IMG/VR virus record: IMGVR_UViG_3300025151_000401
Location: 1-20,196 of that record
DNA length: 20,196 bases
Source of the DNA: a virus
Reading direction: 5' to 3' (one strand)
A model generated the notes under the pieces. The model was not told where the DNA came from. It did not search any database and saw nothing but the letters and a program-made list of their open reading frames with translations. This document shows, in pieces, positions 11,237 through 16,645 of this stretch. Numbering within the stretch: position 1 is the first letter of the stretch; each line of letters opens with the position of its first letter. The translations under genes and the position numbers were made by a program.

Positions 11237-11330
11237 TTCTCAATCCTTCCTAATTGATAAAAACACTTATGACACAACGTCCAGAAAAAAACCAGAAAAT
11301 ATTTATGTGGGGGTATGCAGCTATAGTGGC

Positions 11331-11343
11331 GGGGGGGGGGGGG
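11331..11343. repeat. 13-base G homopolymer
   Basis: An uninterrupted run of 13 G on the plus strand (C13 on the transcribed minus strand), followed by C-A-A and another run of five G. It lies in the presumptive 5' untranslated region of the SSB-tail gene. The tract is far outside the composition of its neighbours. It may be length-variable, may form a G-quadruplex on one strand, or may be an assembly artefact. Confidence 0.85.
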
Positions 11344-11464
11344 CAAGGGGGCGTCCCTGCGAAAACGCGCAAAATCGCGCTGACGAAATGCGGCTTGCCC
11401 TGCTGACCCGCTCGGAATATCCCGCGGTCACTGTGCGACCGGCCCGACCCAAAACGGTTTGGCG

Positions 11465-11480
11465 CATAATACGCATTATG
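11465..11480. promoter_or_regulatory. Palindromic candidate operator
   Basis: CATAAT-ACGC-ATTATG is a perfect 6+6 palindrome with a 4-base centre. It overlaps the -10 side and expected start point of the adjacent minus-strand promoter, the usual place for repressor binding. It would suit a dimeric repressor; the regulator is unknown. Confidence 0.5.
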
Positions 11481-11506
11481 TTAAATTTATTATTGTTTGT
11501 TATCAA
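11478..11506 (-). promoter_or_regulatory. Candidate promoter for the SSB-tail/packaging operon
   Basis: Minus-strand TTGATA (11506-11501) and TAACAT (11483-11478) are 17 bases apart with an AT-rich spacer. The -35 overlaps the TGA stop of the initiator gene. It is followed by a roughly 240-base leader holding a palindrome and the C13 run. The hexamers match 5 of 6 and 4 of 6 consensus positions. Confidence 0.5.
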
Positions 11507-12369
11507 GGCCTTAGCTTTTTTACTACCGCATTGATTGTATTCTTGCTGCGTTTCGGTGCTTTTCCCAGCTTTTTCTCGACCGGAATCTGGAACCATCCGA
11601 TGCCTCGCGGGTAGTCTCGGCGGTTTGCGTGACACCATTTGGCATGACCTTCCAATATTTCACCCCATTGCTTGACTGTTAGCCCGTCCTGCACCCAACT
11701 TTCCATGACCTGATAATCCCTGTCATTGACTTGTCTTGGAGTTCCATAACTTTCAGCAACTCTTAAAAACAAAGAACAACACTGTCTTGATACATCACTT
11801 ATACTGTTAACTGGTATGTTATATGTTCTGTTCTGTGCAACCTCAGAAGTTTCACCCCCTGCAACCTCAGAAGTTTCACCCCCTGCAACCTCTGGGGTTG
11901 ACACGTTACCTATGTCTTGTGAGTTATCCACAGAGTTATCCACAGGCAGATTGACTACTTTACTTGGTTTCTTTTCCATTTGTTGACGCAGTGCTTCGCG
12001 CCTTTCTTCTAAGCCTATGCGTTCGGCTGATGATAGATTGGCCAGTGCTTCTTCTTCTGTCTTTACGTCATCATAAATCACTTTAAAGGTTGTTGTTGTT
12101 TGTCCTTTGTATCTGTTTTTGGCTGTGACGACATACTCTAGGTCTTTGAGCTTTTTGATTTGTTTGTTGACGGCTTGCCTTGATATGCCGAGATCCTTTG
12201 CCAAGCGGGCCTGGCTTACGAATGTGCAGCCGGTTTCATCACAATAAGAACAGAGCGCAGCCAGCACAGAAAGCGCGGTTGTGCGCGTTACTTGTGGATC
12301 TGTGATTGCCTTGATTGGTAAGATCGCAAACTTTCTTAGATCCTTGTTTCTGACTGTGACCGGTTTCAT
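11503..12369 (-). CDS. Helix-turn-helix replication initiator-like protein (288 aa)
   Basis: An N-terminal winged-helix/HTH domain (about residues 30-100) includes SVLAALCSYCDETG, then FVSQARLAKDLGISRQAVNKQIKKLKDLEYV, a classic HTH with wing. A charged linker follows, then a repeat segment (EVAGGETS twice plus EVA, residues about 160-178), then a helical C-terminal domain rich in Trp (VMESWVQDGLTVKQWGEIL, GIGWFQIP). This layout is that of phage initiators such as lambda O or DnaD-like organisers. The repeats are encoded by direct DNA repeats next to DnaA boxes, suggesting the gene carries its own origin. A plain transcription factor is the main alternative. Its start overlaps the methyltransferase stop by four bases. 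Confidence 0.7.
   Translation of the reverse strand: MKPVTVRNKDLRKFAILPIKAITDPQVTRTTALSVLAALCSYCDETGCTFVSQARLAKDLGISRQAVNKQIKKLKDLEYVVTAKNRYKGQTTTTFKVIYDDVKTEEEALANLSSAERIGLEERREALRQQMEKKPSKVVNLPVDNSVDNSQDIGNVSTPEVAGGETSEVAGGETSEVAQNRTYNIPVNSISDVSRQCCSLFLRVAESYGTPRQVNDRDYQVMESWVQDGLTVKQWGEILEGHAKWCHANRRDYPRGIGWFQIPVEKKLGKAPKRSKNTINAVVKKLRP
11836..11892. repeat. 24-bp direct repeats (iteron candidates)
   Basis: Two identical 24-base units beginning TGCAACCTCAGAAG occupy 11836-11859 and 11860-11883, and a third copy is truncated after nine bases (11884-11892). They encode the protein repeat EVAGGETS in the linker of the initiator. The phase keeps the reading frame, since each unit is eight codons. 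Confidence 0.85.
11921..11944. promoter_or_regulatory. Tandem perfect DnaA boxes
   Basis: The 12-base unit GAGTTATCCACA occurs twice head to tail (11921-11932, 11933-11944). Each contains TTATCCACA, the strict consensus DnaA box. In the protein they encode VDNS twice. Two adjacent perfect boxes by chance are very unlikely. They imply use of host DnaA at this site. Confidence 0.75.
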
Positions 12370-12971: not shown

Positions 12972-13393
12972 ATCTCCGCTTCCACTTGCACCAATAACAA
13001 CGGCTGGCCGTACTTCTTTGTGACCTTCAGCATTTCCACCTGTTTATCATCTTCAAAGCAAACCCCGTTTAAAGCGTCCAGAATGAGCTTTGCCACGTTA
13101 TCAATGTCCGGCTTGCCTGGCACTACTTCCCCGCGTGTAGCGGCCTCTACGCGCTTCTTAGGCCATGATTTAGGTATTGGATGCTGTGCAAGAATATAAA
13201 CCTTGCATGGAACCGTGAACGGATCAAGGCCAAGACTAACCATTTCGTCGCTGGCTCTGGCCGCAACTTTCTTTTCAAAGTCTTTGGTTTTCTTTGGCGT
13301 GAAAACGTGGCCGGATCTTGTAAACCGCGGGCGACCTTTACCTACCGGCGCTTCACCAATCCAGAACGTCACCTTGTAATTGATTTTACTCAT
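12968..13393 (-). CDS. rusA: RusA-family Holliday junction resolvase (141 aa)
   Basis: The N-terminus has the family signature GKGRPRFTRSG followed by FTPKKT. The catalytic region KPDIDNVAKLILDALNG (residues 94-110) supplies Asp96, Asp98 and Asp106, and CFEDDKQV follows with Asp115/116. E. coli RusA uses an equivalent set of aspartates on junction DNA. The length (141 aa) is near normal. It would resolve recombination or replication branches before packaging. Its start overlaps the RHH gene by eight bases, with a poor ribosome site, so coupled translation is likely. Confidence 0.93.
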   Translation of the reverse strand: MSKINYKVTFWIGEAPVGKGRPRFTRSGHVFTPKKTKDFEKKVAARASDEMVSLGLDPFTVPCKVYILAQHPIPKSWPKKRVEAATRGEVVPGKPDIDNVAKLILDALNGVCFEDDKQVEMLKVTKKYGQPLLLVQVEAEI

Positions 13394-13613
13394 GGTGACG
13401 CAGCCACGTTTCCAAGTCTACCTGATCCTCATGCTCTGTGAATTGCACACGGTTTTTTTCTGATGGCAAGTGTTGTTCAATGAGATTTGACAGCACCCGC
13501 GCCGAGCTTTCGCCCACTTCGTCCGCGTATCTCTCCAGCTTTTCTTTAGTTTCGGCTGGCATTCTGGTATGAAAAACCACAATGTTTTCAGCTACTAAGC
13601 GTTTTTTTGACAT
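13386..13613 (-). CDS. Ribbon-helix-helix-type transcriptional regulator (75 aa)
   Basis: A short basic start (MSKKRLVAEN) leads into a beta-strand candidate (IVVFHTRMP) and two helices (AETKEKLERYADEVG, SSARVLSNLIEQHL), the Arc/MetJ-like ribbon-helix-helix layout. An acidic tail (VQFTEHEDQVDLETW) follows. The start at 13613 is chosen because AAGGTT lies about 7 bases upstream. The frame is open further upstream, but that would cross the divergent promoter. As the first leftward gene beside two palindromic operators it is the natural repressor of both promoters. A strand-RHH assignment from sequence alone is moderate. Confidence 0.7.
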   Translation of the reverse strand: MSKKRLVAENIVVFHTRMPAETKEKLERYADEVGESSARVLSNLIEQHLPSEKNRVQFTEHEDQVDLETWLRHHE

Positions 13614-13629
13614 TTTTTTAACCTTTTTT

Positions 13630-13663
13630 GTGATATCACTCTTGACCATATATGAGATATCGC
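13630..13663. promoter_or_regulatory. Two GATATC-core operators in the divergent control region
   Basis: GTGATATCAC (13630-13639) is a perfect 10-base palindrome. GAGATATCGC (13654-13663) matches it at 8 of 10 positions and keeps the GATATC core; centres are 24 bases apart. The second lies in the spacer of both divergent promoters and the first just upstream of the rightward -35. The placement suits repression by the neighbouring RHH protein (inference). Confidence 0.6.
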
Positions 13664-15959: not shown

Positions 15960-16170
15960 GACACTCAGCACAAGTCTACGGAGCGTTCAGGATTACTTGG
16001 CGCACAAAGAAACCGAATACACGCAGCTTTACGATCAATACCAAGGGGTGCGACCGAGTTGGGTTTCGGCGGAACTGGCTATAATTGGCTCAGAGATCCA
16101 ATCATTGAGGAATCAGATAACAAAGATCGAAGAGACTTTATCGGGAAGGATGAAACAAGATGTGGATTAA
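15949..16170 (+). CDS. Small coiled-coil protein (73 aa), unknown
   Basis: Begins MEIETLSTSLRSVQDYLAHKE; the rest has heptad-like hydrophobic spacing (SAELAIIGSEIQSLRNQITKI) suggesting a coiled coil. The ATG at 15949 follows GGAGAAAC and overlaps the upstream gene by 11 bases; its 3' end overlaps the Gp157 gene by 11 bases. It may partner the neighbouring Gp157 protein; that is inference from adjacency. Confidence 0.6.
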   Translation: MEIETLSTSLRSVQDYLAHKETEYTQLYDQYQGVRPSWVSAELAIIGSEIQSLRNQITKIEETLSGRMKQDVD

Positions 16171-16645
16171 TTACGAAGAGATCCGCCGCTTGTCTGATAC
16201 GATCCGCGAACTTGGTGGCGATGATGACGACACATTCCTTGATACTCTGGACGGTGAAACCGATGCGATGGAAATTATGGGTTCGTTGATTAAAGAGCGG
16301 CAAGAATTAAAAGCCTTTGAAGAGGCCGCAAAAAAATTGGCCGCTGACTACACTACCCGCGCAAAGCGTATGTCTGCCAAGCAGGATGCCATTGCGCAAG
16401 TCCTGGGGCATCTCTTGGACGCTATGGACATGAAAAAGGTGCAGCATCCCTTGGGAACGGTTAGCCGCACTAAACCAAGGCAGTCTGTCTTGGTGACAGA
16501 TGAAAACGATATCCCAACGCAGCTAATGAAGGTAAAGAAAGCGCCGGACTTGGCCGCGATTAAAAAGCAACTGGACGCGGGGGAGTTTGTTCCTGGCGTT
16601 GAAATCAAACTTGGCCATCATGGCGTAACAATCAGAACCAAGTAA
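16160..16645 (+). CDS. Siphovirus Gp157-family protein (161 aa)
   Basis: The DTLDGETDAMEIMGSLIKERQ block, the long helix with KRMSAKQDAIAQVLGHLLDAM, the short strand TVSRTKPRQSV, and the C-terminal DIPTQLMKVKKAPDLAAIKKQ, then GEFVPGVEIKLGHHGVTIR, together give the usual order of the Sipho_Gp157 family. Members occur in early/recombination modules of phages, and the founding member was linked to phage resistance in streptococci; biochemical activity is unknown to me. Length is normal. Here it lies two genes upstream of a probable annealing protein. Confidence 0.85.
   Translation: MWINYEEIRRLSDTIRELGGDDDDTFLDTLDGETDAMEIMGSLIKERQELKAFEEAAKKLAADYTTRAKRMSAKQDAIAQVLGHLLDAMDMKKVQHPLGTVSRTKPRQSVLVTDENDIPTQLMKVKKAPDLAAIKKQLDAGEFVPGVEIKLGHHGVTIRTK

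Follow-up and report, generated by a model that had tools for sequence, protein, structure and literature searches.

A candidate theta-replication origin with iterons and DnaA boxes inside the initiator gene of an uncultured phage

Background

In bacteriophage lambda, the replication origin lies within the initiator gene O and comprises four imperfect inverted-repeat iterons of about 19 bp and an AT tract (PMC4488673, PMC7466680). The number of these iterons can vary, which lengthens the protein (PMC4488673, PMC7466680), and they are bound by O dimers (PMC5043065). Plasmid origins contain iterons that are mostly direct repeats, combined with DnaA boxes (PMC5043065). Here, we analyze a 20,196-bp IMG/VR virus record (IMGVR_UViG_3300025151_000401, the whole of which is termed the window) with a segment that, judged by its sequence, combines a layout like that of lambda with DnaA boxes of the plasmid kind. 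The segment is located within a replication initiator gene and is likely to be a phage theta-replication origin; a first-pass annotation of the window had already proposed an embedded origin, and anatomy, conservation, and analogy support this proposal. With this segment, the lambda-type embedded origin appears to be represented in an uncultured group of marine phages too, and to be supplemented by host DnaA sites. In the open-licence literature, we found no report of phage initiator genes with embedded DnaA boxes.

Results and Discussion

Anatomy of the embedded segment

The first-pass annotation had described two exact 24-bp direct repeats with a partial third, two tandem perfect DnaA boxes, and an AT-rich flank, all within the coding sequence of a winged helix-turn-helix (HTH) protein, and each of these elements was recovered (Table 1). 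The exact repeats occupy positions 11836-11859 and 11860-11883 and the partial third starts at 11884 (81% over 16 nt). Each 24-bp unit consists of two inverted 9-bp half-sites, so that the array is a row of 19-bp imperfect palindromes of the form TGMAACYTC-N-GARGTTKCA with a pitch of 24 bp. On the coding strand it reads GAGGTTGCA-5-TGAAACTTC-1-GAGGTTGCA-5-TGAAACTTC-1-GAGGTTGCA. Eight GARGTTNCA sites were observed in the window versus 1.6 expected, and five of them are located within 57 bp. As had also been noted, the repeats keep the reading frame and are visible in the protein, the iterons as EVAGGETSEVAGGETSEVA and the boxes as VDNSVDNS. The AT-rich tract adjoins the iterons on their 3′ side with respect to the coding strand, where relatives carry sequences such as AACAGTATATATAACAGTATA, and its melting energy belongs to the lowest 0.2% of all 60-bp windows of the record. 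The resulting order of DnaA boxes, palindromic iterons, and AT tract lies more than 400 nt inside the gene, and the comparison with lambda O drawn in the first-pass annotation proved apt: the central part of O likewise carries 19-bp inverted-repeat iterons followed by an AT tract (PMC4488673, PMC7466680).

Table 1. Features of the initiator gene and the embedded segment (window positions unless stated otherwise).
Feature	Position	Strand	Basis or remark
Replication initiator gene, 288 aa	11503..12369	minus	HTH_36 and PHROG replication-initiation matches
Initiator domains	residues ~30-100 (winged HTH), 134-188 (disordered linker), ~190-270 (helical C-domain)		AlphaFold2 model
DnaA box 1, TTATCCACA; coding strand TGTGGATAA, read VDN	11936..11944	+	exact match; kept in relatives
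DnaA box 2, TTATCCACA, 12-bp pitch	11924..11932	+	exact match; kept in relatives
Iteron 1, 19-bp imperfect palindrome TGCAACCTC-A-GAAGTTTCA	11836..11854		0 mismatches to palindromic consensus
Iteron 2, 19-bp imperfect palindrome TGCAACCTC-A-GAAGTTTCA	11860..11878		0 mismatches to palindromic consensus
Iteron 3, degenerate: good half-site (11884-11892) and decayed partner	11884..11902		3 mismatches to TGNAACYTCNGARGTTNCA
AT-rich tract by the iterons, candidate DNA unwinding element	11764..11823		nearest-neighbour melting energy

Selection on the DNA of the segment

Relatives of the initiator were collected by IMG/VR scans and range from 90% down to 45% protein identity among the matches listed. 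Across this range the half-site GARGTTNCA is kept, and it is read in all three frames: in the window it stands in frame 0 and encodes the peptide EVA, and in the relatives L156-L160 the form GAGGTTACA stands in frames 1 and 2 and encodes GGYT and QRLH. In most close relatives (L006-L019) the register of the array is swapped, with GAAGTTTCA replacing GAGGTTGCA and TGCAACCTC replacing TGAAACTTC. The boxes show a similar picture. Val is encoded by GTG in 27 of 27 perfect boxes versus 18% of the Val codons elsewhere, and the base following the box is C in 13 and G in 14 cases, which switches between Asn and Lys and leaves the box itself unchanged, the sequences behind these counts being not phylogenetically independent. 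Synonymous variation among codons with an invariant amino acid was found at 13 of 31 positions inside codons 139-197 versus 120 of 171 outside (Fisher p=0.0036). In addition, 1000 synonymous shuffles preserving protein and codon usage were generated for the window gene, none of which gave the half-site cluster or the two boxes. These comparisons bear out the earlier suggestion that DNA function shapes the linker and argue that selection acts on the DNA of the embedded segment and not on its peptide. With one word retained in three reading frames, the segment illustrates unusually clearly how the function of DNA can take precedence over the sequence of a protein.

The number of boxes differs between relatives. 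Close relatives contain one to three boxes each, spaced in steps of 12 bp, L154 and L155 one perfect and one decayed box (TGAGGATAA), and L156 and L157 a single box. Because half-sites persist in all relatives while boxes come and go, the iterons look like the core of the element and the DnaA sites like an accessory. The role of DnaA is probably auxiliary, since some relatives retain the repeats without boxes. A conserved HTH protein lacking both repeats and boxes, the pattern named in the first-pass annotation as contradicting an origin, is absent from all full-length relatives recovered with the profile. Apart from the segment, the window contains a lone perfect DnaA box at 1833-1841, about 10 kb from the candidate origin; a single box at a similar distance was also seen in several relatives (G002, G004, G006, G008).

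The initiator protein and a possible mechanism

The N-terminal part of the protein is a winged HTH (Pfam HTH_36, E 1.6e-9), and the protein matches PHROG families annotated as "replication initiation protein". PF04492 (Phage_rep_O) is not among its Pfam matches, PHROG matches to O-like families are weak, and no plasmid Rep Pfam domain was matched. An AlphaFold2 model was calculated from an alignment of 17 sequences, in which the homologue from phage MEP301 was not included. Residues 134-188 show pLDDT values below 50, and this linker, which is predicted to be disordered, is the segment into which the embedded DNA sites fall. The C-domain is helical with a mean pLDDT of 85, and the pTM of 0.49 leaves the relative placement of the domains uncertain. 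A fold search of the PDB with the whole initiator returned only winged HTHs of the MarR/ArsR type, none at E <= 0.001.

These features are consistent with a mechanism in which the initiator, probably dimeric and using its winged HTH, would bind the 19-bp palindromes of the array, and neighbouring dimers would assemble an O-some-like complex. Host DnaA would bind the adjacent box cluster and might help to wrap or open the DNA and/or to load DnaB. Melting would take place in the AT-rich tract on the far side of the iterons, and the initiator C-domain or DnaA may recruit the host helicase. As the sites lie within coding sequence, they would fall in the stretch encoding the disordered linker, which could tolerate gain or loss of 12-bp box units and any peptide encoded by the sites. 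What the sequences show is the anatomy, the conservation at the DNA level, the predicted disorder of the linker, and the recurrence in other initiators; that the two proteins bind here, that the tract melts, that the segment acts as an origin, and what the C-domain does are inferred.

Several observations weigh against an origin of this kind. In L158-L161 the repeats are kept and perfect boxes are missing, so DnaA is not required throughout the family. The distant relatives L154-L161 have fewer half-sites in the cluster (two to three exact ones), and their margin over codon shuffles shrinks; in L161 the cluster was matched by 68 of 1000 shuffles and is not significant. The C-domain alone gave no significant match in the PDB fold search, and no helicase or lambda-P-like loader was recognized among the scanned window proteins, a search which distant loaders might escape. 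Finally, the sign of the GC skew flips where gene orientation changes, and the embedded site does not stand out in the skew profile. The skew minimum was rejected as an origin marker: in the window and in a 32.4-kb relative it lies about 1-1.5 kb from the site, near a divergent gene junction. Skew follows gene orientation here and so cannot place the origin.

Comparison with described systems

The arrangement shares with lambda and lambdoid phages (e.g. P22 gene 18) an origin placed centrally in the initiator gene, with tandem 19-bp inverted-repeat iterons and a subsequent AT tract. In contrast, no DnaA box was found in lambda O or P22 gene 18 even when one mismatch was allowed, whereas one to three perfect in-frame boxes stand beside the iterons here; the initiator also differs from that of lambda in belonging to HTH_36 instead of PF04492, and a P-like gene was not recognized nearby. 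Iteron plasmids such as P1, F, R6K, and pSC101 likewise combine initiator sites, DnaA boxes, and an AT tract (PMC5043065), but the sites found here are palindromic and lie within the coding sequence of the initiator, and no plasmid Rep domain is among the matches. The only clear homologue of the initiator in a named phage is gp55 of the Methylophilales phage MEP301. OM43 phages of the MEP301 type resemble the window in the portal protein (head-tail connector, 59% identical), in the HTH homologue (39% over 92 aa), and in having RusA and terminase nearby. The alignment of gp55 covers 92 residues, and C-domain, boxes, and repeats are missing; the MEP301 paper describes no origin, and the word "origin" is absent from it (PMC8024684).

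Alternative explanations

The dispensability of the boxes in L158-L161 would also agree with real iterons accompanied by boxes that act on transcription or titration, DnaA then modulating an early operon or activating the origin indirectly. In lambda, DnaA stimulates pR, and two DnaA-protected box-like sites lie downstream of pO (PMC3985674). We nevertheless regard such a purely regulatory function as rather unlikely, given that the boxes are tied to the iterons at short range on their 5′ side, that this linkage recurs in other initiator types, and that all three perfect boxes of the 28.9-kb record L035 are located inside its initiator gene. Still less probable is that the HTH protein binds the array to regulate its own gene or to control copy number, the array being an operator, an incompatibility site, or a partition site and the origin lying elsewhere, for example in the intergenic region 11237-11502. 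HTH proteins often autoregulate, and this region is conserved and contains a short palindrome, a C/G-rich tract, and at its edge the 40-bp stretch that melts most readily in the window; however, the array lies deep inside the gene and away from the promoter, together with the DnaA boxes and the AT tract it forms a lambda-like order, and the protein matches replication-initiation families.

Coding-sequence slippage, by which VDNS and EVAGGETS would be repeats of the peptide, tolerated by the linker, and the repetition in the DNA a by-product, is very improbable and appears largely refuted by the sequence comparisons. It would account for the predicted disorder of the linker and for the variation of box number by 12-bp units, as replication slippage would give, but not for one DNA word that yields different peptides in three frames, for the fixed choice of GTG, for the reduced synonymous variation, or for the failure of codon shuffles to give the array.

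Recurrence in other phage initiators

Tandem boxes of the form TGTGGATAANNNTGTGGATAA are strongly enriched in IMG/VR, with at least 120 loci versus 6 for a reversed-box control; most matches fall outside long open reading frames (ORFs). The 12-bp pitch was rejected as a diagnostic feature, 13-bp tandem boxes being also common in IMG/VR. Among the matches listed, 6 of 11 distinct ORFs with deeply embedded tandem boxes in the VDN frame encode replication initiators, namely the window family, L035 (PF04492), L042 (phrog_4707), L300 (phrog_270), and L317 and L372 (both phrog_428). L317 and L372 resemble the window protein, and the six are not all mutually independent. If initiators are assumed to represent 5% of such ORFs, the probability of six or more among the 11 listed is 6e-6. 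By script, inverted repeats were detected shortly after the boxes in five of the six (window family, L035, L042, L317, and L372), such as GGTAACTAATCAGTTACC twice and a variant in L035 or TGCAACCTC-A-GAAGTTGCA in L317. In L300 the script took a third box farther away as its starting point and missed the region, where a GGTCAGCTGACC palindrome was seen by eye. Besides the type found in the window, at least three phage initiator types (Phage_rep_O, phrog_270, and phrog_4707) show the box-iteron arrangement. Known-phage relatives of L035 and L042 are distant only, and boxes occur in none of the three examined in full.

It is an evenly balanced question whether these cases represent a recurrent and so far unnamed class of phage origin, in which host DnaA and initiator would act jointly at a module of boxes, iterons, and AT tract in the disordered linker of the initiator, arisen in several initiator families. 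If true, phage replication would be directly coupled to host DnaA, and DNA sites would dictate part of a protein sequence. The signature of in-frame GTGGATAAS repeats and palindromes in an initiator linker can help to locate origins in metagenomic phages and makes a direct role of DnaA in phage initiation a testable question.

Tandem boxes were also seen in other contexts. In L075, L081, L103, L114, and L120 they lie on the opposite strand near the starts of small ORFs and read SYPQxYPQ, the proteins being otherwise similar. L126 and L140 contain related ORFs of about 110 aa ending in NVDNNVDNSE and NNVDNSVDK, which are in-frame tandem boxes near the C-terminus of a protein type that looks non-initiator.

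The record and neighbouring genes

No end repeats are reported for the window, which is probably a fragment. The source appears to be an uncultured, marine, podovirus-like phage, and the structural genes are podovirus-like. Two scans of genome contigs revealed no cellular relatives or prophages. In the 47,729-bp contig of the relative G001 (L162-L164), the sequence recurs after 32,423 bp, which points to a genome of this length that is circular or terminally redundant.

According to Pfam and PHROG matches, the initiator gene is surrounded by methyltransferase, RusA, and packaging genes, those for the DNA methyltransferase and RusA being located directly upstream in the same direction. The non-coding region 11237-11502 on the 3′ side of the initiator gene is conserved in relatives as distant as L156-L159. 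It contains a CATAATACGTATTATG-like palindrome, a C-rich tract (G-rich on the plus strand, with a run of 13 G in the window copy), and GCATACCCCCACATAAATATTTTCTGG, and it might serve as a promoter or as an element for packaging or as an origin. An Arc-like repressor (13386-13661) and a Mu Gam-like end-protection protein (16160-16645) are encoded within or next to the divergent early region.
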